Shown here: in pieces, positions 6,226-26,273 of the stretch | Layout of the letters: every line of letters begins with the position of its first letter | How positions within the stretch are numbered: position 1 is the first letter of the stretch | NCBI RefSeq assembly: GCF_003788585.1 | Contig: NZ_AYKG01000001.1 | Span: forward strand, 1-64,000 | Length of the DNA: 64,000 nucleotides | Origin: Salinisphaera japonica YTM-1 | Lineage (GTDB): Bacteria; Pseudomonadota; Gammaproteobacteria; Nevskiales; Salinisphaeraceae | Direction of reading: 5' to 3' | Made by a program: the position numbers and the translations under genes | Notes under the pieces: generated by a model | What the model was told of the DNA's origin: nothing | The model's database searches: none | The model's input: only the letters and a program-made list of their open reading frames with translations

Positions 6226-7041
6226 TCAAGCGGTGGCCGCGAGCCATGCGGCGGCCCGGCGCGCCATGGCCGGGCTGTGTTCGAATCGATTCTCACCGAT
6301 GCGTGACACGGCAATCGCCCCGCCGATCGAGTTGCAGGCAATGGCCGCGCAGAAGTCGGCGATGCTTGCCGCATGGATATCGACTTCGACCACAGGCCGG
6401 CCGGCTTGTTCCGCGGCCTGCATCAAACGCGCCCGAGTCGCGCCAGCGATGCCACAGCGCGCCAAGCCCGGCGTATGCCATAAGCCGGCCGGGTCCATGA
6501 ACAACAGGTTACGCATGGTCGTGGCAACGAGCCGGCCCTGGGTGTCGGTCATCGCCAGATCCGGGGCCGCACTGGCCCCGGCTTCGCGCCGTGCCCAGAC
6601 CTGTTCCAGCCGGTTCAGATGTTTCACGCCGGCAAACAGCGGCTGGCAGGCCAGACGCGTGGCCGCGATATCCAGCGCCAGGGTGTCCGGCGGGGTTGGC
6701 ATTCCCGGGGTAAAGGCGATGATCACCCGCGGACGGGCCGGCACGGGCGGCGTGTAACCGCGCCCGCCGCTGCCGCGCGTGACGGTGATCTTGGCCACAC
6801 CGGTGTCACCGGCCTCGATCAGCTGGCCGAGTTCGGCATCAAGCCAGGCGGCTGATGGCCCCCGGATATCGAGGGCGGCGCAATCGTGTGCCAAACGCTC
6901 GTATTGAAAGACCCGAGCCACGACCTGGCCGTTGTCGATGGCCAGGGTGCGAAAAACACCGTCGCCATAAGCCAGGCCGCGATCATCGGCCGCCACGAAC
7001 GTCTGGGCCTGCCCGTCGATGCGCAGACGCGGCTCAGGCAT
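6226..7041 (-). CDS. pabC: 4-amino-4-deoxychorismate lyase
   Basis: This 271-residue fold-type IV PLP enzyme converts aminodeoxychorismate to p-aminobenzoate and pyruvate for folate synthesis. The YGDGVFRTL motif near 25-33 and VKHLNRLEQV near 139-148, with Lys140 as the likely PLP lysine, are typical. The start is taken at the ATG at 7041, which overlaps the end of pabB by 8 bases; upstream in-frame starts read through pabB coding sequence and add no family sequence. Partner pabB lies directly upstream. Confidence 0.93.
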   Translation of the reverse strand: MPEPRLRIDGQAQTFVAADDRGLAYGDGVFRTLAIDNGQVVARVFQYERLAHDCAALDIRGPSAAWLDAELGQLIEAGDTGVAKITVTRGSGGRGYTPPVPARPRVIIAFTPGMPTPPDTLALDIAATRLACQPLFAGVKHLNRLEQVWARREAGASAAPDLAMTDTQGRLVATTMRNLLFMDPAGLWHTPGLARCGIAGATRARLMQAAEQAGRPVVEVDIHAASIADFCAAIACNSIGGAIAVSRIGENRFEHSPAMARRAAAWLAATA

Positions 7042-8437
7042 AAGACGTGCCGTTGCGATCGACAAATGCCCGCAGCACGCCGGTCGCCTTGTGGCGGGTT
7101 TCCTCGAGCTCGGCCTCGGGGATCGAGTCCGCCACGATGCCGGCACCGGTACGCAGCACCAGCGCCTGGCCCGACTGGGTGAGCGAGCGAATCACGATAT
7201 TGGTATCCAGACGCCCACAGCGCGATAGATAGCCGAACGAGCCGGTATAAGCGCCGCGTCCGGTAGCCTCGAGCTCGCCGATGATCTCCATGCAGCGCAC
7301 CTTGGGGCAGCCCGTGATCGTGCCCCCGGGAAACACGGCCCGCAACGCCGCGCCCGGGCCAATATCCGGCTGCAGGCGCCCAAAAACGTTGGACACGATA
7401 TGGTGTACGTGGGCATAGGATTCCACGGTCATCAGTTCGTCGACGGCGACCGTGCCCGGCTGACAGACGCGGCCGAGATCGTTTCGCACCAGATCGATGA
7501 GCATGACGTGCTCGGCGCGCTCTTTCGGGTGCGCAATCAGCTCATCGCTGCTGCGGCTGTCGTGGGTCGGATCGCTCGTGTCGTATCGTCGCCGCGTGCC
7601 GGCGATCGGCCGTACGCTGGCTCGGCCGTCGCTGATCTGCAACAGCCGCTCCGGCGAGGAGCTGATCAAGGCCGCGCCGCGCCATTGCATGAGCCCGGAA
7701 AACGGCGCCGGGTTGGCCGCACGCAGTGCCCGATAGATTGTCGCCGGCGACGTCTCGGCCAATAGCCGACCGTGCCAGGCGCGGGCCAGGTTGGTCTGGA
7801 ATACATCACCGGCCGCGATGTAATCGCGTGCCCGGTTCACGGCCGCCAGGTATTGCTCGGCCGGGTCCTCCTGCCAATCGATGGCTGGTGGTTTGTTTTC
7901 CGGCCCGGGCCGTGAATCATCGGTGACCTGGCCGGCAAGGGCCTCGCCCCGGGCACGCGCATCGCCTTCGACCACGATATGAATCTGGCCGGCCGCGCGG
8001 TCGTGGATCAATCCGGCCGTACATCGCACGGCCAGGGCATGAGGCAAGGGATCATCGGCATCGACGGGCAAGCGCAGACGTGGCTCGACCCCGGTGGCCA
8101 TTTCATAACCCAGATAGATGAACCAGCCGCCGATGAAGGCCAGTTCCGGCACCGGGGTCTCGGTATAGGCGGCAGCTTGTGCGTCCAGCCAATCGAAGAA
8201 AGCCGGGGCATCCGCCAGATCCTCGATCTCGATCGACGAGGCGGGGTCAGGATCGGCGAGCAGGATGTCGTAGCGCGACTGGGCAGCCGCCCCCGCGCTG
8301 GATTCCATGAGAAACGGAAAGACGGCCGGGTCGTTCTCGGCCAGCCGGTCCAGGCTGATACAGCGGGAAGCATCCAGCGTCAGCCATGTCAGTACATGGT
8401 CCTGACGCCGGATCCGGCAATCCTGAGGGTGGGTCAC
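7034..8437 (-). CDS. pabB: aminodeoxychorismate synthase component I
   Basis: This 467-residue chorismate-utilising enzyme should aminate chorismate at C4 with ammonia from a PabA amidotransferase, which is not encoded here. The C-terminal catalytic domain shows [20 protein letters not shown] and the [12 protein letters not shown] block. Length and position next to pabC favour PabB over anthranilate synthase TrpE (about 500 residues). One oddity: the signature at 277-281 is PIAGT, the TrpE form, instead of PIKGT, whose Lys is the nucleophile in E. coli PabB. It starts with GTG at 8437, overlapping the fabF stop by 4 bases (GTGA). Confidence 0.85.
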
Positions 8438-9675
8438 ACGTAGCGTTTGAAGATCAGGGATCCGTTGGTGCCGCCAAAGCCGAAAGAGTTGGACAGTGCG
8501 GCATCGATGGTCATCTTGCGTGCTTCATGTGGCACGTAATCGAGATTGCAGCCTTCGGCCGGTGTGTCCAGATTGATGGTCGGCGGCGCCACCTGATCAC
8601 GGATGGCCAGCAGCGTGAAGATCGCCTCGGCCGCACCCGCGGCCCCCAGCATGTGGCCGGTCATCGATTTGGTCGAGCTGACGGCCACGTTCTTGGCGCC
8701 CGCACCCAGCACCGCCTCGATCGACTGGCTTTCGGACACGTCGCCGGCCTGGGTGGATGTGCCGTGGGCGTTGACGTATTGAATATCCGCGCCGGTCAGG
8801 CCGGCGTTGGTCAATGCCCGCTCCATGCAATGACGCGCGCCGCGCCCGCTGGGCATGGTGATGTGATGCGCATCGCCGCTCATGCCGAAGCCCACGACTT
8901 CGCCGTAGATCTTGGCCCCGCGCGCTTCGGCAGAGTCCAGATCCTCAAGCATGAGCACGCCTGCGCCGTCGGACAGCACGAAGCCGTCGCGATCGACATC
9001 CCACGGGCGGCTGGCGCGCTGCGGGTCGTCGTTGCGAGTTGATAGCGCCTTCGCCGAGCAGAACCCGGCCAGGCCGATGGGGTTGACCGCCATCTCGCAG
9101 CCGCCGGCCAGCATGGCATCGGCATCGCCGCCGGCGATCATGCGTGCGGCCAGCCCGATGTTATGCACACCGGTGGTACAGGCCGAAACAGCCGCGATGT
9201 TGGGCCCATGCAGATTCAGCTGTATGGATACCGCGCCTGCGGCCATGTTGGCGATACTGCTGGGAATGAAGAAGGGCGAGACCTTCTTCGGGTTGTAATC
9301 GGACTCGTGAAAGGCCGCACAGGTCTTCAGGATCGTGCCGATCCCCCCGATGCCCGAGCCCACGGCCACGCCGACGCGATCGTTATACTCGTCGGAGAGC
9401 TCGAGCCCGCTGTCGGCCAGCGCCTGAGTCGACGCCGCCACACCGTAGTGCACGAACGGATCGAAGCGTTTGGCTTCCTTGGCCGACATGTAATCGGTGA
9501 CGTCGAAGTCACGGATCGGCCCGCCGAAACGCGTCGGATAAGCCGACGTATCGAACGAATCGATCGTTGAAATACCGCTGCGGCCGGCCAGTATGCCTGC
9601 CCAGGTATTCTCGACATCATTGGCCAGCGGCGAGACCATGCCAAGGCCGGTTACTACTACGCGACGCTGATTCAA
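8434..9675 (-). CDS. fabF: beta-ketoacyl-ACP synthase II
   Basis: This 413-residue condensing enzyme elongates acyl-ACP with malonyl-ACP in the cytosol. The catalytic Cys166 lies in AVSACTTG, with the two His motifs [11 protein letters not shown] and [15 protein letters not shown] further on, giving the Cys-His-His triad of KAS I/II enzymes. The start is a TTG at 9675 with AGGGGG about 5 bases upstream; no in-frame ATG precedes the conserved first strand [13 protein letters not shown]. acpP is about 100 bases upstream, pabB overlaps downstream. Confidence 0.95.
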
Positions 9676-9730
9676 CGACGCCCCCTGTCAGAAAAGAAGG
9701 CCGCCCAAGCGGCGGCGGCAGAGATCCAGC

Positions 9731-9752
9731 CGGCCGTCGTTATCGACGGCCG
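9731..9752 (-). promoter_or_regulatory. stem-loop between acpP and fabF
   Basis: CGGCCGTCG at 9731-9739 and CGACGGCCG at 9744-9752 form a perfect 9-bp stem with a TTAT loop. It has no T tract, so it is more likely an mRNA processing or stability element, or a weak attenuator, that lets acpP be expressed above fabF. That role is inferred. Confidence 0.6.
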
Positions 9753-9775
9753 AGCGTCACAGATCGCAGGACGGA

Positions 9776-10015
9776 TCAGCCTTCGGCGTGCGACTTGATG
9801 TAGTCCACGGCGTCTTTGACGTTCACGATCTTCTCGGCTTCCTCGTCGGGAATATCGATCTCGAACTCTTCTTCCAGCGCCATGACCAGCTCGACCGTGT
9901 CCAGCGAATCGGCACCCAGATCGTCGACGAACGAGGCCTCCGAGGTGACCTGATCTTCGCTCACCGACAGCTGCTCGGCGATGATTTTCTGCACTCGTTC
10001 TTCCACGCTACTCAT
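9776..10015 (-). CDS. acpP: acyl carrier protein
   Basis: This 79-residue acidic protein carries growing acyl chains. The 4'-phosphopantetheine attachment serine is Ser37 in [13 protein letters not shown], the universal motif. Length matches E. coli AcpP (78). The start is the ATG at 10015 with AGGAGA about 7 bases upstream; the longer in-frame extension has no family sequence. It lies between fabG and fabF in the fatty-acid operon. Confidence 0.98.
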
Positions 10016-10112
10016 GGGATCTCTCCTGTTGCTTGGTCTTACGTTGCTTGACGCGACTATCCGCCCTCGCAGATCGCGCGCCATTCTAGGGAAAAAGGGG
10101 GCGTTTCGCCAG

Positions 10113-10862
10113 CTAGGCGCCCATGTACAGGCCGCCGTTGATAGAAAGCGTCTCGCCGGTAATATACCCGGCTTGCGGCGAGGCGAGAAACGCAGCCGCG
10201 GCCGCGATGTCATCGACGCTGCCCAGCCGGCCCAGCGGGATCTGCTCGAGCATCGACTTCTTGGTGTCCTCGAGCAGGTCACGGGTCATATCGGTCTCGA
10301 TAAAACCGGGGGCAATAGCGTTGACCGTGATCGCACGTGAGCCGACCTCGCGCGCCATGGATCGGGTGAACCCGAGCAGCCCGGCCTTGGCCGCGCTGTA
10401 GTTCACCTGGCCGGCGTTGCCCATCAGGCCGACAACCGAACTGATATTGATGATGCGCCCGCCACGGGCTTTCATCATGCCCTTGAGCGCGGCTTTGGAG
10501 ACACGAAACACGCCAGACAGGTTAGCATCGATCACGGCCTGCCAGTCATCGTCTTTCATGCGCAGCATCAGCGTATCGCGCGTGATGGCCGCGTTGTTGA
10601 CCACGATCGTGGGCGCGCCGAATTCCTGACCGATTGTCTTGATCAAGGCTTCAACCGATGCCCCGTCGGTCACGTCCAGCGCGCGCCCGGCCCCGCCATG
10701 GACGCCCAGGCGATCATTGATGGCGTTTGCCCCGTCGTCGCTCGTGGCCGTGCCGATGACCGTCGCCCCGTCGGCGGCCAGCCGATCCGCGATAGCGGCG
10801 CCGATGCCCCGACTTGCCCCGGTGACGAGCGCGACCTGGCCGGCGAGTGTGTTCTCGGACAT
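10113..10862 (-). CDS. fabG: 3-oxoacyl-ACP reductase
   Basis: This 249-residue short-chain dehydrogenase uses NADPH to reduce 3-ketoacyl-ACP. The cofactor-binding TGASRGIG is at 14-21, NNAAI follows, and the catalytic Ser142-Tyr155-Lys159 set is seen in SSVV and YSAAK. It ends in [10 protein letters not shown], as FabG proteins often do. The start is the ATG at 10862. Neighbours fabD and acpP confirm the elongation-cycle assignment over other SDR enzymes. Confidence 0.96.
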
Positions 10863-10901
10863 ACGATTAAGACTCGTTCTGGATGAATAGGCCGTGCGGC
10901 G

Positions 10902-11855
10902 CTAGCCGGTCACGCGGGTGATCGTGGCGGCCATGTCCTCGGCCTCGGATAACGCCACGCTGTCGATCGTCTTGTCGATGCGCTTGTTCAGGCCAGTCAG
11001 CACCTTGCCCGGGCCGCATTCAACAAAGGTATCGCAACCGGCGTTTTTGATGTGACGCACCGTGTCGGCCCAGTAGACCGAGCCAGCCAACTGGGCAACA
11101 AGCGCCTTGCGGATGCCTTGTAAATCTTCGCGCGGGCGAGCATCCACGTTGTGATACACCGGCAACCGCGGCTCGCGCAGCGGAATATCTTCCAGATGGG
11201 CGGCCAGACGCTCGGCGGCCGGACGCATCAGGCTGCAGTGCGACGGCACGCTCACCGCCAGCGGTTTGACGAGTTTGGCGCCTTTTTCCTTGGCGATTTC
11301 TCCGGCACGCGTCACCGCATCGGCGTGGCCGGCGATCACGACCTGCATGGGCGCATTGAAATTGGCCGCCGAAACCTTGAGGCCCTTATCGGCCAGCTCG
11401 TCGCTGGCGGCCTGACAGGCGGCCACGACATCGTCATCCGACAGGCCGATGATGGCCGCCATGGCGCCCTGCCCGGCTTCGACCGCGCCCTGCATGGCCT
11501 GCCCGCGCAGACGGGTCAGGCGTAGCGCATCGCCGAAATCCATGGCGCCAGCGACCACCAACGCACTGTATTCGCCCAGGCTGTGCCCGGCCAGATGCGT
11601 GGGCATCGGCCCGCCGGCCTGTTGCCAGAACCGCCAGTACGCGATGCTGGCCGCCACCAGTGCAGGCTGCGTGTATTCGGTCTTGCCGAGCGTTTCTGCC
11701 GGCCCGTTATCGATAACCTCGGCCAGATCGAGGCCCAGGGCCTCGTTGGCTTCGGCCAGAGTCTCGTCGACCACGGCGTGCTGTTGTTTCGCAGCCGTCA
11801 GCATGCCGACCGACTGTGCTCCCTGCCCGGGAAAGATCATCGCAAAACGCGACAT
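10902..11855 (-). CDS. fabD: malonyl-CoA:ACP transacylase
   Basis: This 317-residue enzyme transfers malonyl groups from CoA to ACP. The N-terminal FPGQGAQ (8-14), the nucleophile motif GHSLGEYSA with Ser92, and the later SVPSHCSLM with the catalytic His are all present. The ATG at 11855 is chosen because family members begin a few residues before FPGQG; an ATG at 11891 would add 12 atypical residues. In many gammaproteobacteria fabH and plsX precede it; here a divergent nudJ does. Confidence 0.95.
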   Translation of the reverse strand: MSRFAMIFPGQGAQSVGMLTAAKQQHAVVDETLAEANEALGLDLAEVIDNGPAETLGKTEYTQPALVAASIAYWRFWQQAGGPMPTHLAGHSLGEYSALVVAGAMDFGDALRLTRLRGQAMQGAVEAGQGAMAAIIGLSDDDVVAACQAASDELADKGLKVSAANFNAPMQVVIAGHADAVTRAGEIAKEKGAKLVKPLAVSVPSHCSLMRPAAERLAAHLEDIPLREPRLPVYHNVDARPREDLQGIRKALVAQLAGSVYWADTVRHIKNAGCDTFVECGPGKVLTGLNKRIDKTIDSVALSEAEDMAATITRVTG

Positions 11856-12004
11856 AGGATCGAACGGGTCGATGTATGAAGTCCGGCGCATGATACCCGG
11901 CCGATATGCGCTTGGCCATGTGAATTTGGAAACCCCCGCGTTCGCACGATTGACGGCGTGGGCCTACACTTTTGCCCTGCAATATGAGTAAGCGAGGCCC
12001 AGGC
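11856..12004. promoter_or_regulatory. divergent promoter region fabD / nudJ
   Basis: This 149-base spacer separates the minus-strand fab operon from the plus-strand nudJ operon. It must carry both promoters. I cannot assign -35/-10 boxes or a FabR/FadR-like operator with confidence. Confidence 0.4.
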
Positions 12005-14352: not shown

Positions 14353-17091
<2,739 letters not shown>

Positions 17092-17142
17092 CGCTGCCAC
17101 GACAATCGCTCGGCGCTATCGTCGAGCGGTTTCGTCGTCTGA

Positions 17143-17176
17143 ATCCGGCTTCTTTGACGAGAAGCCGGATTTTTTA
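17143..17176 (+). terminator. rho-independent terminator after acnA
   Basis: ATCCGGCTTC at 17143-17152 pairs with GAAGCCGGAT at 17161-17170 (10 bp, 8-base loop), followed by TTTTT at 17171-17175. It lies about 50 bases after the acnA stop. Confidence 0.92.
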
Positions 17177-17188
17177 TGGGAGAAAACC

Positions 17189-17509
17189 GTGCATGGAAAG
17201 CGTGATGCAATGCCGCTTCGTTATCGGCGGCGCAACAAGGAACGTATCAAGGAAGAGATCGGCACGCTTCGGCTGGTGCTGGTAGCGGCGATCGGTATCG
17301 ATGCCACGTTGATCGGGCAGCTTTTTAAAGCGTTCAGATCAAGCGACGCCGACCCGGCGCGCTACGACAGTCTCTGGTCGTTCGTCTCGGTCTGGTTCTT
17401 TTCTTTTGAAACGCTGATCGTGCTGGCTGTTGAAATTGCGCTTCTTGCAACTGTTGTATTATCGTTACGAATAAGATCGTTGTTGCAACAACTGGAGGGT
17501 ATTACATGA
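17189..17509 (+). CDS. small two-helix membrane protein, unknown
   Basis: I do not recognise this 106-residue protein. It begins with a basic stretch (HGKRDAMPLRYRRRNKERIK), then a hydrophobic segment at about 25-47 (LRLVLVAAIGIDATLIGQLF), a hydrophilic loop with SSDADPARYDS, and a longer second hydrophobic segment at about 68-95. The GTG start at 17189 has GGGAG 6 bases upstream; an ATG at 17210 is the alternative. It follows the acnA terminator, so it is probably transcribed from its own promoter or by read-through. Its stop overlaps the start of a 25-codon gene (ATGA), which argues that both are real. Confidence 0.6.
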   Translation: MHGKRDAMPLRYRRRNKERIKEEIGTLRLVLVAAIGIDATLIGQLFKAFRSSDADPARYDSLWSFVSVWFFSFETLIVLAVEIALLATVVLSLRIRSLLQQLEGIT

Positions 17510-17583
17510 TCATCTATCCGATAATCGGTATTGCCAGCATGACCGGCGCCTTCATTTATGTCGCCTACAAGTGGACACACTGA
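17506..17583 (+). CDS. 25-residue membrane micro-protein, unknown
   Basis: This tiny frame encodes MIIYPIIGIASMTGAFIYV plus the tail AYKWTH. It is one hydrophobic helix with a short basic end, similar in style to CydX, KdpF or AcrZ-like accessory subunits, but with no recognised family. Support is the strong GGAGGG ribosome-binding site at 17494-17499, 6 bases before the ATG, and the 4-base overlap with the preceding membrane-protein gene. It would be missed by most gene finders. Confidence 0.55.
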   Translation: MIIYPIIGIASMTGAFIYVAYKWTH

Positions 17584-17614
17584 CCGGGCACAGGCTCTTT
17601 TTCACGCAAGGCGT

Positions 17615-19087
17615 TTAACGAAACGCCGGCTCGTCAAACGAGCGCAGCTTGCGGGAATGCAGATCGGGCAGCCCACCCTCGCGCAGCAAGCGAATCGTCT
17701 CCAGCCCGATCGTCAAGTGCTGGGCCACCCGCGTGCGATAAAACGCATTGGCCATGCTGCGCAGCTTGAGCTCGCCGTGCATGGGTTTGTCAGAGACGCA
17801 TAACAACGTGCCGTAAGGCACGCGCAGGCGAAAGCCGTTGGTCGCAATCGCGGCACTTTCCATATCCACCGCAATCGCCCGTGACTGTGAAAACCGCTCA
17901 TAGAGTTCGTCGAAACGAAACTCCCAGTTGCGGTTGTCGGTGCTGGCGACCGTGCCGGTGCGCAGGCGATCCTTCATCTCTCGGCTCGATAAACCCGTGA
18001 CGTTGGTCACGGCATCTTCCAGTGCCAGTTGTACCTCGGCGATCGGCGGAATCGGCACCCAGGTGGGCAGATCCTGATCGAGCACGTGGTCTTCGCGGAC
18101 ATAGCCGTGGGCCAGCACGTAATCGCCCAACTGCTGTGAGCGACGCAGCCCGCCACAATGGCCGATCATCAACCAGCAATGCGGGCGCAGCACGGCCAGA
18201 TGATCGGTGATGGTCTTGGCGTTCGACGGCCCCATGCCGATATTGATCAAGGTGACACCCAGACCGTCCTCGCGCACCAGGTGATAGGCCGGCATCGGCG
18301 GCAGATGCCGCGGCGTCTGGCCATCCGTGACCAGCCCTGTGCCGTCGGGCCGGCCCGTGATCGTGTCGCCGGGTGCCACGAACCCGGTATAGGCGTTGTC
18401 CCGGCCGAGCTCTTTGTCGGCATGTTCGCTGAAATCATCGACATAGCGCTGATAGTTCGTCAGCAGTACAAATCCCTGAAAATAAGCCGGATCGGTGCCC
18501 GTGTAGTGCCCCAGGCGCTGCAAGGCCAGATCGGTGCGGGGAGCGTCGAAAAGCGCCAGCGGGAACGGATGGCCGCGGCGTGTTCGATGCGTGCTGTTGG
18601 CGATACTGTCGTCGATATCGGCCAGATTGGGCAGAAAGAACGCCTGTTCCATGGCGCGCAGATCATCGGGCTCGAGATCGGCCGTGGCCGATTCGATCAC
18701 GAACGGCAAGGGAATCGGCTGGCCGCTCAGGCCCACGTGGATCGGCCCGCCGTGGTTGTCGAGCAGCAGCGTCAACTGTTCCAGCAGGTAGTCTTGGAAC
18801 AGATCCGGCCGGGTCACGGTCGTGCCGTGCACCCCGCTCTTGCGCAGTGATCCATAGGTGGGCCGTGCATTGGCTGTCAGCCGATCGGCCGTAATTTCAA
18901 TGCCCACATACGGATAGAATGCCTCCGGCATGGGTTCGGGCGTTTTCTCGCCGGCCATGAACCGGCGATGACGCTCGCGAATACTGTCGCAGGCCCGCTG
19001 ATAGAGCGCTTCGATATGCGCCAACGCCTGCTCGGCGTGTTCAAAGGCTTTGAGCTGCGAGGCGTTGCCATGGCCGGTGCCGGGCAT
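17615..19087 (-). CDS. amn: AMP nucleosidase
   Basis: This 490-residue enzyme hydrolyses AMP to adenine and ribose-5-phosphate and helps set adenylate levels. The N-terminal AMP nucleosidase domain (about 20-180) is followed by a phosphorylase-like catalytic domain with NIGMGPSNAKT, GHCGGLR and AVDMESAAIATNG, the last being the phosphorylase-family active-site block. E. coli Amn has 484 residues. The ATG at 19087 has AAGGA 7 bases upstream; a GTG at 19114 has no such site. Confidence 0.93.
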   Translation of the reverse strand: MPGTGHGNASQLKAFEHAEQALAHIEALYQRACDSIRERHRRFMAGEKTPEPMPEAFYPYVGIEITADRLTANARPTYGSLRKSGVHGTTVTRPDLFQDYLLEQLTLLLDNHGGPIHVGLSGQPIPLPFVIESATADLEPDDLRAMEQAFFLPNLADIDDSIANSTHRTRRGHPFPLALFDAPRTDLALQRLGHYTGTDPAYFQGFVLLTNYQRYVDDFSEHADKELGRDNAYTGFVAPGDTITGRPDGTGLVTDGQTPRHLPPMPAYHLVREDGLGVTLINIGMGPSNAKTITDHLAVLRPHCWLMIGHCGGLRRSQQLGDYVLAHGYVREDHVLDQDLPTWVPIPPIAEVQLALEDAVTNVTGLSSREMKDRLRTGTVASTDNRNWEFRFDELYERFSQSRAIAVDMESAAIATNGFRLRVPYGTLLCVSDKPMHGELKLRSMANAFYRTRVAQHLTIGLETIRLLREGGLPDLHSRKLRSFDEPAFR

Positions 19088-19217: not shown

Positions 19218-19610
19218 ATGCGCGATCCGTTCATGACTCTCGGCCTATCGGCCCTGATTGTCTTATCTGCAGGGACAGCGGCAATCGCTGCACCGGATCA
19301 GGCCGCCGACCAGGGCTCGATCACGGTCCGTACCCTGTTCGATCAGCTCGATCGTAACGGTGATGCGCTGCTCAGCCGCGACGAGCTGGCGGCCAACCCG
19401 GCGATCGCTGATGCTTATGACTCGTTCGATACGACATCGACGATTCAACAGCCGGCAGAAAACACGCGTCCGGGCGGTATCACGTATGCCCAGTTCGCCG
19501 CCGGCATGGAAGCGGCCGGCCAGAGCGGTGCCTTTGGCCCGGCGGTCAGCGGCGGCCAACGCTATCTGGAATACCCTGACGGCAGCCGCCAGCCGTTACC
19601 TGCCAAATAG
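19218..19610 (+). CDS. secreted EF-hand domain protein
   Basis: This 130-residue protein has a signal peptide (about 1-25, ending AAIAA) and one canonical EF-hand loop, DRNGDALLSRDE at 45-56, so it is probably a periplasmic calcium-binding protein. A second, degenerate hand may lie near GGITYAQF. The C-terminus is Gly/Pro-rich. AGGAG lies 7 bases before the ATG at 19218. Its function is unknown; a second EF-hand protein is encoded at about 30 kb. Confidence 0.75.
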   Translation: MRDPFMTLGLSALIVLSAGTAAIAAPDQAADQGSITVRTLFDQLDRNGDALLSRDELAANPAIADAYDSFDTTSTIQQPAENTRPGGITYAQFAAGMEAAGQSGAFGPAVSGGQRYLEYPDGSRQPLPAK

Positions 19611-19613
19611 CGC

Positions 19614-20675
19614 TCATTCGCCCCAGGTGGCTTCGAGCACGCGCAGCCAGTTGTCCTGAGACAGGCGCGCGATAAGTGAATCGTCATACCCGCGTGCCTG
19701 CATGGCTTCTATCAGACGCGGGAGATCGGCGGCATCAGCCACCGGCGTGGCGTGGATACCGTCGAAATCCGAGCCCAGGCCAACATGATCGGCGCCCATG
19801 ACGCCGATCATGTGATCGATATGATCGAGCATCACCGCGATCGGCGTGGCCTCGTTCAATGCCCCGTCGGGCCGCAGGAAATAAGAGCCGAAATTCAAGC
19901 CCACGATGCCGCCCGAATCGGCGACGGCACGTAGCTGCTCGTCAGTGAGATTCCGGGCATGCGGACACAGCGCATGGGCATTGGAATGGCTGGCTACCAG
20001 TGGGGCCGTGGACAGGCGGGCCGTGTCCCAGAAGCCTTTTTCATTCAGATGCGATAGATCGAGCACGATGCCGTAATCGTTGCAGGCGGTGACCAGCGAC
20101 TTGCCGGCCCGCGTCAGGCCCGGGCCGGTATCCGGCGATGACGGAAACTTGAACGGCACGCCGTGGCCAAACACGGTCGGCCGGCTCCAGACCGGGCCGA
20201 TCGAGCGCAAGCCCGCGGCATACAACCCGTCCAGAGCCCGCAGATCGGCATCCACGGGCTCTGCCCCCTCCAGATGCAACACGGCCGCAATAGCGCCCAC
20301 ATGTTGTGCCGCGCGAATATCGGCCACCGTGCGACAGACCCGCAGGTGCTCTGGACAAGCCCGCTCGATACGATGCAATAAACCGATCATATCCAGCGCC
20401 GGCGGCAGCGCCCGGCTTTGATCCATCTGGGCGGGTACGGGCACCTCATAACCGCCCTGGATGCGATGAAAGCCGCGTCGATCGGCTTCGGGCGAGGGAA
20501 TGAACACTGCGAACAGCCCGCCGACAAAGCCGCCGGCCTGCATCCGCGGCCAATCCAGATGCCCGCCATCGCGGCCTTCGATGAACAGCCGGACAGCCTC
20601 GTCGGGGGCGTGTTGTGCCAGCCGCAGCAACAGATCGTTGTGGCCATCGAAGATGGCAGTCGCAGATAACGTCAT
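19614..20675 (-). CDS. membrane dipeptidase family zinc peptidase
   Basis: This 353-residue protein belongs to the renal dipeptidase (M19) family. It shows the first metal pair in DGHNDLL (His12, Asp14), the bridging Glu in LHLEGAE, a His in SHSNAH, and the late GLGSDFDGI block. It should cleave dipeptides with broad specificity; the substrate cannot be read from sequence. The ATG at 20675 is the first start giving family sequence, and no signal peptide is seen. It is convergent with the EF-hand gene (3-base gap) and divergent from imuA. Confidence 0.9.
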   Translation of the reverse strand: MTLSATAIFDGHNDLLLRLAQHAPDEAVRLFIEGRDGGHLDWPRMQAGGFVGGLFAVFIPSPEADRRGFHRIQGGYEVPVPAQMDQSRALPPALDMIGLLHRIERACPEHLRVCRTVADIRAAQHVGAIAAVLHLEGAEPVDADLRALDGLYAAGLRSIGPVWSRPTVFGHGVPFKFPSSPDTGPGLTRAGKSLVTACNDYGIVLDLSHLNEKGFWDTARLSTAPLVASHSNAHALCPHARNLTDEQLRAVADSGGIVGLNFGSYFLRPDGALNEATPIAVMLDHIDHMIGVMGADHVGLGSDFDGIHATPVADAADLPRLIEAMQARGYDDSLIARLSQDNWLRVLEATWGE

Positions 20676-20790
20676 CTGCGCATGATAGCGCGCAGTGCCT
20701 ATGTTTGGCCGCCTGTCTTCAGATCGAGAATATTGTCGTGTCAGCGGCTTGGCCGCGTACAACCAGACAGGGCTGGCCAGTCGGTTTTTT

Positions 20791-20808
20791 ACTGTATATA
20801 AATACAGT
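20791..20808 (+). promoter_or_regulatory. LexA (SOS) box of imuA operon
   Basis: ACTGTATATAAATACAGT is a near-perfect match to the gammaproteobacterial LexA operator (CTG, ten AT-rich bases, CAG). It ends one base before the imuA ATG, so LexA binding would cover the start region. The TATATAA within it could serve as the -10, which would place the transcript start at or next to the start codon. Confidence 0.95.
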
Positions 20809-20809
20809 C

Positions 20810-21688
20810 ATGAAAGACGACGCGACGACCTCCTCTCCACAGACCACCGCCAAAATCGAGGCGGACTGGCAACGACTGGGTGTTCATCGCGCCAGTCAGG
20901 CTGCGCGCCCGATCACCTGGTCCACCGGGCTGGCCGCGCTGGATCGTATCCTGCCGGGCCAGGGCTATCCGCTGGCCAGCGTCACCGAATGGCTGATCGA
21001 GCGTTCTGGCATGGGCGAGCTGAGCCTGTTATTGGCGGGCCTGGGCCCGCGACTGCAAGCCAACCCCAGCCAGCGCCTGGTACTGGTCAACCCGCCCTAT
21101 GCGCTCAACGCGCCGGCACTGGACGCCGCCACCATCGATCGCGGGCGTATGCCGGTGCTGCGATGCACCACGCCGGCCGAGGCGATCTGGAGCATCGAAC
21201 AACTGGCCGCCGCCGGCGGTTTCGTCGGCTTCGTGCTCTGGGAGGATCAGCTGGAGATGACCGATCTGCGCCGGCTGCAGCTGGCCAGTGAAAAAGCCGG
21301 GTGTCCGGTGTTCGTCTATCGTCATATGCCCTGTGCGCGCCAACGCTCGCCGGCGGCACTTCGTCTGGTGCTGACCCAGCGTGCCGGGCAACAACGTATC
21401 GAGGTCTTGAAATGCCGTGGCCCGGGCGGGGCCCGCAGTCGGGGACTCACGCTCGGGCGCGACCGGCCTTGGCAACAGACCCGCCCGAAGCAGGCTTTTC
21501 GTCTCGGACGAATTCAGCAGGCACCCAGTGACAACGAGGCAACGATTGGCACGGCCACGCCGTCGCGGCCGGTATCACTACGGCCATTAAAAGCCTCGAA
21601 ACCACATCATAAAACTGATTTAACCTATTGTTATAAAAATATAAAAAACAAAAACAGAAAACCCAAGACCTTTCTCTATCCGGATTGA
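20810..21688 (+). CDS. imuA: SOS mutagenesis protein ImuA
   Basis: This 292-residue SulA/RecA-like protein is the first gene of the ImuA-ImuB-DnaE2 mutasome cassette. STGLAALDRILPGQGYP near 42-58 is the usual ImuA opening, followed by a RecA-like core without a complete Walker A. The last 30 or so residues, DLTYCYKNIKNKNRKPKTF, are Lys/Asn-rich and come from an AT-rich stretch unlike the rest of the gene. No ribosome-binding site fits between the LexA box and the ATG, so translation may be leaderless. The stop lies 2 bases before imuB. Confidence 0.88.
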   Translation: MKDDATTSSPQTTAKIEADWQRLGVHRASQAARPITWSTGLAALDRILPGQGYPLASVTEWLIERSGMGELSLLLAGLGPRLQANPSQRLVLVNPPYALNAPALDAATIDRGRMPVLRCTTPAEAIWSIEQLAAAGGFVGFVLWEDQLEMTDLRRLQLASEKAGCPVFVYRHMPCARQRSPAALRLVLTQRAGQQRIEVLKCRGPGGARSRGLTLGRDRPWQQTRPKQAFRLGRIQQAPSDNEATIGTATPSRPVSLRPLKASKPHHKTDLTYCYKNIKNKNRKPKTFLYPD

Positions 21689-21690
21689 TC

Positions 21691-23139
21691 ATGTGGTTGG
21701 CCCTGCGTTTCGTTCATTGGCCGTTGGATGCAAGACGTGATGACGAGGCCACGCATGCGCGGGTTGTCGTCGCCGCGCAACGACAGCGTCAACGTATCGT
21801 GGCGGCCTGCCCCGAGGCGTTATCTGCAGGCATACGTCTTGGCATGGATTTGGCTGATGCCCGCCTACGACGGGCCGATATCGAGGTCTTCCAGCGCAGG
21901 ATCGCCCCCGAGCGGGCGGCCCTGGCCCGGCTGGCCGGCTGGGCCTGGGGGTATAGCAACGAGGTGCACTGGGCGATCGCTGATGACCACATCGAGTGCA
22001 GCCGCTTGGTGCTGGAGATCGGCGCCAGTTTGAAGCTCTTTCACGGGCGCCAGCGGCTGTTGTCATCGATCGAACAAGACCTGTCCGGGTTTGCTTATCG
22101 CTACCAGGCAGGCCTGGGCACGAGCCCACAAGCCGCACTGGCGTTTGCACGCGCCGAGCCGGCCATTCGACAAGATGGCGTATTGGGCGACCTGCCGATT
22201 CATTGCCTGTGTCTGGCCAACGAGGCCGAACAGACGCTGGCCGCGAGCGGTATCACGCATACCGATGCCCTACTGGCCTTGCCGCCGGCTGCCTTGGCAC
22301 GGCGTTTCGGTCGGAGCGTGCTCGATGCGTTGGAGCGGCTACAGGGACAGCGCCCGCACGGATTGTCGTTGTATGACCTGCCGCCGCGTTATGACACGCG
22401 CCATGAGCTGTTCGGCGCAATCGACAATACCCAGGGTTTGGTTTTCGTCCTGCGCCGTGTCTTCGAGGAAGTGGCTGTCTTTCTGAGCGGCGCAGACAGC
22501 GCGATTCAGACCCTGCGTTTGACGCTTATTCACGAAGACGAGCAGACAACAAAGCTTGTGCTCAAGCTGTCGGCGCCGTCTCACGATGCCCGGCATCTCG
22601 AACGTGTCGCCCACGAGCGCCTGTCGCAAGTCTCGCTCACGGCCCCGGTATTGGCCATCGGACTAACCAGTGACCGCCTGCGGCGCTCGGCACACGATCA
22701 ACGTCGGCTCTGGGCGATGCAGGCCGAATCCTCTGAGGCAGCCTGGCCGGGTGTGCTCGATCGCATACGCGCACGGCTTGGGCATGAGGCCGTGGGCTGG
22801 ATCCATGCACGGGCCGATCATCGCCCGGACCGCGGTTCTTATCATGCCGACCGGCCGGCTGATGCCGAGGCCGCAGACCGGATCGCGACAGACCAGACAT
22901 CGGCGCCGCGCCCGATCTGGTTGCTCGATGTGCCCGAACGCGTTGGCGCAGACGAGGCCCGGTGTTTTCGTTGGATCAGCGGCCCGGAGCGTATCGAAAG
23001 CGGTTGGTGGGACGGCGGCCAGCGTCGAGATTATTACCGCGTGCTGGATGACACGGGGCGCCTGCTCTGGATCTTTCGTGATTTGGGTGTCGCCAGCGCC
23101 GATGCGCCCGATTACTACGTGCACGGCTTGTTCGGCTAG
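21691..23139 (+). CDS. imuB: ImuB, inactive Y-family polymerase-like protein
   Basis: This 482-residue Y-family relative links ImuA and DnaE2 to the beta clamp during SOS translesion synthesis. The start MWLALRFVHWPLDA is typical. The acidic catalytic residues of active Y-family polymerases are not visible, as in other ImuB proteins. Middle segments such as SLYDLPPRYDTRHEL and the C-terminal PIWLLDVPERV and YYRVLDDTGRLLWIFRD are family marks. It lies 2 bases from imuA and dnaE2 on either side. Confidence 0.9.
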   Translation: MWLALRFVHWPLDARRDDEATHARVVVAAQRQRQRIVAACPEALSAGIRLGMDLADARLRRADIEVFQRRIAPERAALARLAGWAWGYSNEVHWAIADDHIECSRLVLEIGASLKLFHGRQRLLSSIEQDLSGFAYRYQAGLGTSPQAALAFARAEPAIRQDGVLGDLPIHCLCLANEAEQTLAASGITHTDALLALPPAALARRFGRSVLDALERLQGQRPHGLSLYDLPPRYDTRHELFGAIDNTQGLVFVLRRVFEEVAVFLSGADSAIQTLRLTLIHEDEQTTKLVLKLSAPSHDARHLERVAHERLSQVSLTAPVLAIGLTSDRLRRSAHDQRRLWAMQAESSEAAWPGVLDRIRARLGHEAVGWIHARADHRPDRGSYHADRPADAEAADRIATDQTSAPRPIWLLDVPERVGADEARCFRWISGPERIESGWWDGGQRRDYYRVLDDTGRLLWIFRDLGVASADAPDYYVHGLFG

Positions 23140-23141
23140 TC

Positions 23142-26100
23142 ATGGAATATTCTGATCCAATACATGAAGATGATTACGCAGAGCTTTGTTGTGTCAGTAA
23201 TTTTTCTTTTCATCGCGGTGCCTCTCATCCCGAGGAGCTGATCACCCAAGCGGCCGCACTCGGCTATCGGGCACTGGCATTGACCGACGAATGCAGTCTG
23301 GCCGGTGCGGTACGCGCCTGGATGGCCGCCGAAAAACACCACATGAAGCTGATTCTGGGCAGCCGCTTTACGTTGCAAGAAGACGTCACGCTCATCGCGC
23401 TCGCACGAAATCGCGAGGGTTATACCCAGCTGTGTCGCTTGATCACGGCGGCCCGCCGGGCCAGCGATAAAGGCGGTTATCGACTGTCGTTGGCCGATCT
23501 GGCGGGCCACGATCTGTCGTGTTGTTGGCTGCTGGTGCTGCCGGCCTATGCACAGGCCCCGCCGCCGGCGCTGCATGCGCTGCTGGCCGATCTGGTATGT
23601 CGCTACCCGCGATCGGTGCGGCTGGCACTGGCTTTGCATCGCGGCCCGTTGGATGCTCTTCACGTGGAACGCCTGTCAAAGCTGCGTCGTCACTACGGCG
23701 TGCCTATTGTGGCCGTGGGTGATGTGCACATGCATTGTCGCTCGCGCCTGGTGCTGCAGAACGTGTTCACGGCACTTCGACGACACACCACGGTGGCGGC
23801 GGCCGGCACGGCGCTGGCCCCCAACGGCGAGCGTTATCTGCGCCCGCGTGCCGACCTGGCCTTGCTCTACCCGGCCAAGATGCGTGCGGCGAGTTGTCGG
23901 ATCGCCGATGACTGCGTATTCGATCTGCGCGAGATCGAATACGACTATCCGGCCGAGCTGGTGCCGGCCGGGCACACATCGGCCTCGCATCTTCGTAAAC
24001 TGGTTGAAAAAGGCGCTATAAAGCGTTGGTCCAATGGGGTTTTGGCCAAGGTGCGCGAACAGATCGAGAAAGAGCTGGCGCTCATCGATGCCATGGGCTA
24101 CCCGCATTATTTTCTGACCGTGCACGATATCGTTCGTGAAGCCCGGGCCCGGGGCATTCTGTGTCAGGGCCGCGGTTCGTCGGCCAATTCCGTGGTCTGT
24201 TATTGCCTGGGCATCACTGAGGTCGATCCGGGCCGGCACGAGCTGCTGTTCGAGCGCTTCATTTCCGAGTCGCGCAACGAGCCGCCGGATATCGACGTCG
24301 ATTTCGAGCACTCCCGGCGTGAAGAGATCATCCAGTACATCTATGCCAAGTACGGGCGTGGTCGGGCAGCCCTTGCGGCCACGGTGATCCGGTATCGCCC
24401 GCGTAGTGCCATGCGTGATGTGGGCCGGGCGCTGGGCCTGTCGGCCGATCAGATCGATGTCGTCGCCGGTGAGCTTTCACGCCGGGCGGATGACGGCACC
24501 ATCGCTGAGCAGTTGGCCGAGCGCGGCGTGCGTCTGGATGCGCGCCTGCTGCATCGCATGTTGGGGCTCGTGGACACCTTGATGGGGTTTCCGCGGCATT
24601 TATCCCAGCACGTTGGCGGGTTCGTGCTCAGCCAGCGCCCGCTGGAAGAGCTGGTGCCGGTCGAAAACGCGGCCATGCCCGATCGCACGATCATCCAGTG
24701 GGACAAGGACGATCTCGAAGCCGTGGGGCTGATGAAGATCGACGTGCTGGCGCTGGGCATGCTCTCTTGTATTCGGCGCTGTTTCGATCTCATCGCCGGG
24801 CATACCGGACGCCTGCTCAGCATGGCCGGTATACCGGCCAAGGACAGTGCGACTTACGCCATGATTCAGGCTGCCGACACGATCGGCGTGTTCCAGATCG
24901 AATCCCGGGCCCAGATGACCATGCTGCCGCGCCTGAAACCCGCACGGTTTTTCGATCTGGTGGTCGAGGTGGCTATCGTGCGCCCCGGCCCGATTCAGGG
25001 CGGCATGGTGCACCCCTATCTCAAGGCGCGTGAAAATCCGGCCCAGGTGAGCTATCCCAGCGAGGCGCTGCGCGGGGTGTTGGCCCGCACGCTCGGCGTG
25101 CCGATCTTCCAGGAACAGGTGATGAAGATCGCGATGGTGGCCGCCGATTTCACTGGCGACGAGGCCAACGGCTTGCGTAAATCGATGGCCGCCTGGAAGA
25201 AAGACGGCGGCCTGGAGCCCTGGCGCGAGCGGCTAAAATCCGGCATGCGCGCCAACGGCTACGACGAGAGCTTTGCTGATCGCATCTTCGAGCAGATCAA
25301 GGGCTTTGGTAGCTACGGTTTCCCCGAGTCGCATGCCGTAAGTTTTGCACTGCTGGTCTATGTCTCGGCCTATCTGAAATGTCATTACCCGGCCGCTTTT
25401 GCTGCGGCCCTGCTCAACAGCCAGCCCATGGGTTTCTATGCGCCGGCCCAGATCGTGGCGGATGCCCGGGCCCACGGGGTGGCCGTGCGGGCGGCCGACG
25501 TGCGCTATTCTGAGGTTGAGTCACGCCTGGAATCCCGTCCGGGCGAAGCGGCCCATCCTGACAGACGTGCGGCGTTACGGCTGGGGTTAGACCGGGTCAA
25601 GGGCCTATCCGAGGCGGCGGCCACGCGGATTGTGGCTGCGCGCCGCGAGCGTGGGTTTGTCGATATTGCTGATCTGGTTACACGCGGCGCTCTGGATAAG
25701 CGGGCACGCGATGCGCTGGCCCGGGCCGATGCGCTAGCCGGCCTGGCCGGCGATCGTCATCGGGCCCAATGGCAGATCGCAGCGGCCGCGGTACACAACG
25801 ATCTGTTTGCCGATATACAACCCGTCGAGGACGATGTCGCCCTGCCAGCCCCGGCCGAGGGCGCAGATATCACCGCCGACTACAACAGCACGGGGCTTAC
25901 ACTCAGACGCCATCCGGTCGCCCTCATGCGCGCCGAGCTTGCGCGTCTTGGCGTGATGTCGGGCGCGGCGTTCAAACGCTTGAATCACGAGGCCACGGCC
26001 CACGTGGCCGGTATTGTGACCATGCGCCAACGCCCGGGCAGCGCCAAGGGCGTGACGTTCGTCACGCTCGAGGACGAAACGGCCACGGTCAACGTCATCG

Positions 26101-26273
26101 TGCGCCGGGACGTGCTGGCACAATTCCGCGTGGCCGTACTGTCGGCGCGCCTGCTACGCGTCGTAGGCGTAATGCAGCGCGCCGGTGCGGTCACGCATTG
26201 CCTGGCCCATGAAATCGTTGACGAGACCGCGCGCCTGGGCACACTACAGACACGCTCGCGAGATTTTCATTGA
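23142..26273 (+). CDS. dnaE2: error-prone DNA polymerase DnaE2 (ImuC)
   Basis: This 1043-residue C-family polymerase is the catalytic part of the mutasome. The N-terminal PHP domain opens with SNFSFHRGASHPEEL (about 19-33). The palm Asp residues are in PPDIDVDFEH (381-390), with the third in LMKIDVLALGML near 540. The C-terminal OB fold follows (THVAGIVT-like and GVTFVTLEDETATVN). Length fits DnaE2 (about 1030-1080), shorter than replicative DnaE1. The start ATG is 2 bases after the imuB stop. Confidence 0.95.
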   Translation: MEYSDPIHEDDYAELCCVSNFSFHRGASHPEELITQAAALGYRALALTDECSLAGAVRAWMAAEKHHMKLILGSRFTLQEDVTLIALARNREGYTQLCRLITAARRASDKGGYRLSLADLAGHDLSCCWLLVLPAYAQAPPPALHALLADLVCRYPRSVRLALALHRGPLDALHVERLSKLRRHYGVPIVAVGDVHMHCRSRLVLQNVFTALRRHTTVAAAGTALAPNGERYLRPRADLALLYPAKMRAASCRIADDCVFDLREIEYDYPAELVPAGHTSASHLRKLVEKGAIKRWSNGVLAKVREQIEKELALIDAMGYPHYFLTVHDIVREARARGILCQGRGSSANSVVCYCLGITEVDPGRHELLFERFISESRNEPPDIDVDFEHSRREEIIQYIYAKYGRGRAALAATVIRYRPRSAMRDVGRALGLSADQIDVVAGELSRRADDGTIAEQLAERGVRLDARLLHRMLGLVDTLMGFPRHLSQHVGGFVLSQRPLEELVPVENAAMPDRTIIQWDKDDLEAVGLMKIDVLALGMLSCIRRCFDLIAGHTGRLLSMAGIPAKDSATYAMIQAADTIGVFQIESRAQMTMLPRLKPARFFDLVVEVAIVRPGPIQGGMVHPYLKARENPAQVSYPSEALRGVLARTLGVPIFQEQVMKIAMVAADFTGDEANGLRKSMAAWKKDGGLEPWRERLKSGMRANGYDESFADRIFEQIKGFGSYGFPESHAVSFALLVYVSAYLKCHYPAAFAAALLNSQPMGFYAPAQIVADARAHGVAVRAADVRYSEVESRLESRPGEAAHPDRRAALRLGLDRVKGLSEAAATRIVAARRERGFVDIADLVTRGALDKRARDALARADALAGLAGDRHRAQWQIAAAAVHNDLFADIQPVEDDVALPAPAEGADITADYNSTGLTLRRHPVALMRAELARLGVMSGAAFKRLNHEATAHVAGIVTMRQRPGSAKGVTFVTLEDETATVNVIVRRDVLAQFRVAVLSARLLRVVGVMQRAGAVTHCLAHEIVDETARLGTLQTRSRDFH

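Follow-up and report, generated by a model that had tools for sequence, protein, structure and literature searches.

Two overlapping small genes at the acnA-amn junction of Salinisphaera japonica belong to a mobile family of membrane-protein pairs with a possible role in defence or addiction

Introduction

Between acnA and an amn-like gene of Salinisphaera japonica YTM-1, an earlier note had described two short overlapping frames as a translationally coupled pair of small membrane proteins, which it assigned to no family and likened to accessory subunits, holin/antiholin pairs or type I toxins. The question raised by this locus is whether frames of this size, the second of only 25 codons, are genuine genes and, if so, what kind of unit they form. 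It was addressed in the window, that is, the whole stretch of 64,000 nucleotides analysed (contig NZ_AYKG01000001.1, positions 1 to 64,000), and in collections of genomes, contigs, plasmids and phages. The easily overlooked 25-codon frame proved to be half of a conserved two-gene family.

Organization of the locus

The coordinates and signals reported earlier for both frames (GGGAG, GTG, ATGA and GGAGGG) were correct on re-reading and translation. The features, in window coordinates, are the following:

17142..17175, plus strand: terminator-like hairpin and T run, 3' of acnA (by eye)
17178..17182, plus strand: GGGAG, SD site of ORF1 (read in the sequence)
17189..17509, plus strand: ORF1, two-helix hairpin membrane protein, 106 codons (translation, conservation, AlphaFold2)
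17494..17499, plus strand: GGAGGG, SD site of ORF2, within the final ORF1 codons (L-E-G) (read in the sequence)
17506..17583, plus strand: ORF2, single-helix microprotein, 25 codons (translation, conservation)
17571..17583, plus strand: end of ORF2, recognisable in the genome G011 without the rest of the pair (sequence comparison)

The acnA stop was read directly in the sequence at 17091. The hairpin that follows it was not among the sites given by the terminator scanner, and it is also kept in Salinisphaera sp. UBA1666 and in G011. ORF1 runs from GTG 17189 to the TGA at 17507-17509, and ORF2 from ATG 17506 to a stop ending at 17583, the ORF1 stop and the ORF2 start overlapping as ATGA. The downstream neighbour, named by eye from its translation, is an amn-like gene on the minus strand that ends at 17615. 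A scan from 17060 to 17640 gave no sigma-70-like promoter, and Rfam gave nothing above the gathering score between 16900 and 17800. In addition, no RYYYAAC core was present within 30 nt after ORF2, nor did inspection by eye reveal an attC where acnA and amn meet. This member of the family is thus a chromosomal one, located at the acnA-amn junction and belonging to the group with an SD-led ORF1. Elsewhere in the window, frames resembling an imuA-imuB-dnaE2 mutagenesis operon (20615-26273, by eye from translations) and a small frame whose start resembles a signal peptide and which bears an EF-hand-like motif (19218-19610, by eye) were observed.

Conservation within the genus

A search of the contig collection yielded one relative, Salinisphaera sp. 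UBA1666 (DCKU01000183.1; G010, L002, L013), in which the pair occupies the same acnA-amn position and the GTG start, both SD sites and the ATGA overlap all recur. The window and UBA1666 share 83% identity over residues 4-106 of ORF1 and 22 of the 25 residues of ORF2. By the Nei-Gojobori method, dN and dS were 0.121 and 1.196 for ORF1, and 0.052 and 0.679 for ORF2. Synonymous changes made up 38 of the 54 changed ORF1 codons (99 compared, beginning at the internal ATG 17213) and 6 of the 9 changed ORF2 codons (25 compared). The earlier note had regarded a lack of conservation, or of a synonymous substitution pattern, as fatal to its reading; the pair is in fact kept, with a dN/dS of about 0.1 for each frame, and judging from place and codon changes both frames look like real genes.

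In G011, a genome of the same GTDB genus, acnA and amn are 98 and 96% identical to those of the window, the pair is absent between them, and homology with the window resumes at 17571, inside the end of ORF2. Because UBA1666 is more distant (its amn is 90% identical to that of the window) yet keeps the pair, its absence from G011 is most simply explained by loss; the comparison suggests that the pair was probably lost there with no visible harm. Another family member is present elsewhere in the G011 genome. In a further genome (G001), the space separating acnA from amn is short and no pair could be recognised in it.

Purifying selection on both genes and a fixed chromosomal place in two Salinisphaera species would suit a module of host physiology, in which hairpin and micro-subunit tune a host membrane enzyme or transporter, and their size and topology are appropriate for small regulatory subunits. 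Against this stand the loss in G011, the lack of a common neighbour gene and the distribution of the family detailed below, which is patchy, multicopy and decaying and extends to plasmids, a prophage and sites between attC repeats. We consider such a housekeeping role doubtful.

Distribution of the family

A common pattern was first seen among weak matches: a start reading K-E-E-[IL]-x-[WYT]-L-[KR], a pair of hydrophobic helices, a basic end and L-E-x-L. Given that the first look of the profile searches was limited, their genome counts are lower bounds. The family was found in at least 13 of 274 sampled gammaproteobacterial genomes (14 matches minus G175, a weak match inside a 307-codon frame), in at least 10 of the 14 genomes of the window's genus, and in all 3 genomes examined from one order (6, 8 and 2 matches, in part fragments of a single copy). 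The window's own genome (G000) gave at least four matches. A sample of the phylum, in which at most 14 candidates were scored per genome, gave at least 4 of 398 genomes, two being weak matches inside long frames; a further sample gave 16 positives among 368 genomes, many of which were shared with the earlier samples. The hosts found are Salinisphaera, other Gammaproteobacteria, Campylobacter and Helicobacter.

The family is often multicopy and patchy, with many broken copies. Flanking genes differ between loci, and inspection by eye of the nearest neighbours of 24 loci revealed no common gene; most members sit singly amid unrelated genes, not in arrays (by eye). Besides arrays, genomes reportedly also take up integron cassettes at attG sites (Loot et al.). 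Three more members in the window's genome, on contigs 69 (about 10256), 67 (about 37514) and 38 (about 20152), are mutually very unlike, and in the contig 69 copy ORF1 and ORF2 overlap by 32 nt. In another genome (G422; L067, 8650-12302), three members, two of them truncated, lie on the same strand within 3.7 kb, with transposase-like genes nearby (by eye).

ORF2 as the constant partner of ORF1

A one-helix frame of 22-42 codons was found at the end of ORF1 in 41 of the 46 loci assessed, that is, 39 of 44 (45 rows minus G267f, which had no anchor) plus both of two further loci whose sequences lie outside the profile. Such a frame was counted if it contained a hydrophobic stretch, did not exceed 45 codons, and began no more than 32 nt ahead of, or 9 nt past, the end of the ORF1 stop. 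An SD site precedes ORF2 in 35 of 39 loci, frequently inside the L-E-x-L codons of ORF1; as a control, none of the 692 mechanical ORFs (150 aa or longer) from the same fetched regions had an SD-led hydrophobic micro-frame at its end. Among the five loci without the micro-frame, ORF1 is broken in G010c, G267e and G144f, G715 is either broken or poorly anchored, and G001 is a weak match with a well-placed hydrophobic frame that may exceed the 45-codon limit.

In the four closest ORF2 couples, 37 changed codons were synonymous and 12 nonsynonymous. Four more distant couples showed no synonymous excess by raw count (8/11, 9/10, 12/10 and 4/18; total 33 vs 49), and in the three of them with computable dS, dN was well below dS. 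ORF1 and ORF2 distances were correlated over 35 loci (Mantel r 0.75, none of 5000 permutations as high; G267b, G000d, G422c and G232b not included). Since linked genes correlate anyway, this value is read as joint inheritance and not as contact.

Two observations bear on ORF2 itself. On a Campylobacter coli plasmid (L114, NC_022348, about 240-410) it is duplicated in tandem after ORF1, as two diverged 27-codon copies, and in the prophage BK070054 its counterpart is annotated as a gene (DBB20187.1). Frames so short do arise by chance; nevertheless, with 41 of 46 loci set against a control of 0 in 692, a synonymous excess, a listed gene and a tandem duplicate, it is hardly credible that ORF2 is a chance frame. 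ORF1 and ORF2 very probably form an obligate pair, and the proposal of a two-helix protein coupled to a genuine microprotein has held up, the pair being conserved in a second Salinisphaera and in distant relatives.

It must be noted that at least six copies (G144a, G267c, G232b, G000d, G290 and G422c) combine a broken ORF1 with a kept ORF2, some of which may be assembly errors. With an ORF1 2.7 times the length of ORF2, the bias toward broken ORF1 is not significant. In those copies, ORF2 alone is evidently not a potent toxin, since it is kept beside a broken ORF1. Many broken copies and the lack of common neighbours would be expected if the pair were, at most sites, cargo not selected for any function of its own, copied from place to place and soon decaying. 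The synonymous excess in both genes and the maintenance of the pairing over large divergence speak against it and make this account improbable.

Occurrence on plasmids, a prophage and integrons

The plasmid collection contained two matching records, Campylobacter coli plasmid pN29710-2 (3,707 bases) and plasmid pRGF00013 (3,571 bases), and further plasmid searches gave no additional match. On both plasmids, of about 3.6 kb, the other listed genes are only for replication or mobilisation, or are unnamed. The micro-frame is absent from the gene tables of both, and that of C. coli also omits ORF1; such tables are incomplete, and the pair may therefore be missed elsewhere.

The phage collection contained one matching record, the Helicobacter canis prophage BK070054, in which the two frames are listed as hypothetical proteins (78 and 31 aa) and the pair is orientated against the 10 other features shown. 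ORF2 used as query had no match in this collection, and pattern scans of IMG/VR, which reach close relatives only, gave no confirmed relative. The same record also has a toxin-antitoxin pair annotated as vapB/vapC (L115, 6298-6911), at a distance of about 2 kb from the membrane pair. A small two-helix membrane protein and one prophage copy are what a holin/antiholin or other lysis pair would offer. This suggestion of the earlier note found no backing: nearly all copies lie outside phages, in the sole phage record none of the 12 features that surround the pair, most of them hypothetical, is annotated as a lysis gene, and the holin matches were weak (Pfam Phage_holin_3_7, E 0.11; PHROGs holin phrog_198, the best there, E 0.055), neither being convincing. 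We regard a lysis function as very improbable.

In the genome G009, attC-like sites flank the pair on both sides (L079, 6688-6773 and 7154-7256). A 103-nt repeat with the ends GCCCAAC and GTTGGGC lies directly upstream of the pair, and a second repeat, 92% identical to the first over 86 nt, directly after ORF2. The 103-nt repeat folds only moderately better than its shuffles, 10 of 200 of which fold as well (z -1.9). Repeats with 86-97% identity to it lie near the integron integrases of G009, G003 and G000, at distances of 0.4-3.4 kb, and by this likeness the repeats were identified as attC sites of that integron. In the window's genome, a pair with a truncated ORF1 on contig 38 (L071) lies between sites 7030-7069 and 7731-7828, a GTTAGGT core ending two bases before the ORF2 stop. 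Across the family, 4 of 39 loci had an attC-like core no further than 30 nt past ORF2 (expected 0.8; 17 of 2000 shuffles reached 4), and a first attC finder gave 3 sites in 18 regions. An integron integrase over the cut-off was found in 9 of the 13 pair-bearing genomes vs 95 of 261 others (Fisher two-sided p 0.036), one of the nine, G232, being a borderline case from a fragmented assembly. No pair copy was present in the stretches next to integrases (L095-L107), several of whose contigs end within a few kb. Integron residence is therefore claimed for two loci only, in which attC sites flank the pair and match those of an integrase-bearing integron. In the window's genome, contig 7 carries an integron integrase (70258-71199, minus strand) accompanied by several attC-like repeats, and a separate array of such repeats lies on another contig, 38 (L071, about 7030-11930).

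The pair family thus occurs on three kinds of mobile DNA, namely plasmid, prophage and integron.

Expression signals

In 11 of 31 members, the start of ORF1 is preceded, at 5-8 nt, by the end of a TAnnnT box that agrees with TATAAT at 4 or more of its 6 positions, compared with a mean of 2.0 and a maximum of 7 members in 2000 mononucleotide shuffles; the 31 members are 36 rows minus G097, G232b, G008, G006 and G011, in which the start is unclear. In most of the 11 the -35 box is poor. A second cluster of boxes was found 25-28 nt upstream of ORF1 in 6 of 30 members. An SD site precedes ORF1 in only 6 of 31. From the position of the box, ORF1 looks leaderless in 11 of the 31 members. With these boxes and the scarcity of SD sites before ORF1, part of the family thus seems to combine a leaderless or SD-less start of ORF1 with an SD-led ORF2, a concrete and testable expression switch. 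One could speculate, although we think it quite unlikely, that leaderless ORF1 and the strong buried SD site of ORF2 mark an unnamed mobile class of membrane modules for immunity or addiction, built of a helical hairpin and an obligate microprotein, in which changes of the ribosomes under stress or phage infection would shift the product ratio and so arm the device.

Structure and possible function

AlphaFold2 run on 25 aligned members predicted for ORF1 two long helices (10-51 and 73-105) and a short one (62-70), with a mean pLDDT of 80.7 and a pTM of 0.60. Searches of Pfam, NCBIfam (six sequences), PHROGs and PADLOC reached no curated cut-off where one exists. The lowest E-values were those of Anthrone_oxy (0.0023) and MARVEL (0.0028) in Pfam, a cyanate transporter (0.0039) in NCBIfam and phrog_21985, of unknown function (0.0011), in PHROGs, all four being taken as hydrophobic-helix noise. 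PADLOC, queried with 10 proteins of 6 pairs, gave no match (best E 0.031). The best PDB match by profile was a designed repeat protein (E 0.01); by fold, none was obtained at E 0.001, the first being a chain of the FtsE/FtsX/EnvC complex (E 0.85). In the literature, no description of such a pair was found among the top-ranked matches. That neither protein was recognised in the earlier note agrees with these searches, none of which gave a convincing match; the family is unnamed and fits no library family, small mobile two-gene modules being known as a kind.

Starting from the observed pairing, conservation, spacing, SD placement and occurrence on mobile DNA, we tentatively propose that the two frames constitute one autonomous, horizontally moving two-gene membrane module, in which a microprotein would partner a hairpin for defence or addiction. 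ORF1 would be an inner-membrane helical hairpin whose long amphipathic ends are presumably cytoplasmic, a placement suggested by its basic C-terminus. ORF2 would be made from the same mRNA, by restart or by internal initiation at the SD site buried in the conserved L-E-x-L codons, and the microprotein may pack against the hairpin to give the working complex. With less certainty, this complex might act as an accessory device, either for phage or superinfection exclusion or as a membrane toxin held by a membrane antitoxin.

The argument for defence or addiction combines the locations of the pair with what is described for integron cassettes. Toxin-antitoxin cassettes are stocked by integrons and bear their own promoters (PMC11023631), and a second source, citing other work, attributes an anti-phage role to one fifth of the unknown V. 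cholerae cassettes (PMC12444791). On the other side, there is no PADLOC match, most members lie outside arrays, an attC-like core follows ORF2 in only 4 of 39 loci, the stretches beside integrases gave no copy, ORF2 persists beside a broken ORF1 in at least six copies, the window copy has no visible attC or promoter, and G011 probably lost the pair with no visible harm. Such a role is possible, and we advance it with reserve.

A sharper form of this proposal, overlapping with it, is a strict toxin-antitoxin system, in which one product would depolarise the membrane and the other neutralise it by contact. The pair does consist of two co-translated small genes, as in type II-like systems, it resides on tiny plasmids with otherwise only replication, mobilisation or unnamed genes, ORF2 has the size of known membrane toxins, and integrons stock such cassettes (PMC11023631). 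However, at least six copies keep ORF2 without an intact ORF1, an argument that falls if ORF1 is the toxin. We judge the strict form unlikely. The broader proposal of a mobile membrane module is readily approached at the bench: as little more than 300 bases suffices for most members, toxicity, plasmid stability and phage resistance are directly testable.

Comparison with known systems

CydX and KdpF are single-helix micro-subunits, some 25-35 residues in length, whose translation falls at an operon's end, and ORF2 is likewise single-helix, of similar size and at the operon end. Their recall in the earlier note stands as regards the fixed form of the micro-partner. It does not extend to the placement of such subunits beside the large complex they serve, which was not found among the nearest neighbours of 24 loci inspected by eye, these having no large partner gene in common. 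The partner of ORF2 is a hairpin of 75-106 residues and not a large enzyme, and the unit is mobile and patchy.

TisB is a type I membrane toxin of 29 residues. Toxins of this type resemble ORF2 in size and in having a single helix; in contrast, ORF2 is conserved with, and coupled to, a protein-coding partner. Rfam, in which an antisense RNA was sought, had no match above the gathering score at the window locus; RNAs outside that library may exist, and ORF2 may yet be a toxin of this type. T4 Imm, a phage exclusion membrane protein of about 80 residues with two helices, is comparable by description alone to ORF1 in size and helix number, and the prophage copy is a lone reversed operon. Unlike T4 Imm, ORF1 is accompanied by a microprotein, and the pair family has no library match.

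The toxin-antitoxin and anti-phage cassettes of the V. cholerae superintegron are, like the pair, small autonomous units; two copies of the family lie between attC sites, and a promoter of their own, as in integron cassettes, is likely in part of the family from the boxes upstream of ORF1. No sequence relation to those cassettes was found, and most copies of the pair are outside arrays. What is novel here is that both products are membrane proteins and that one of them is a microprotein.
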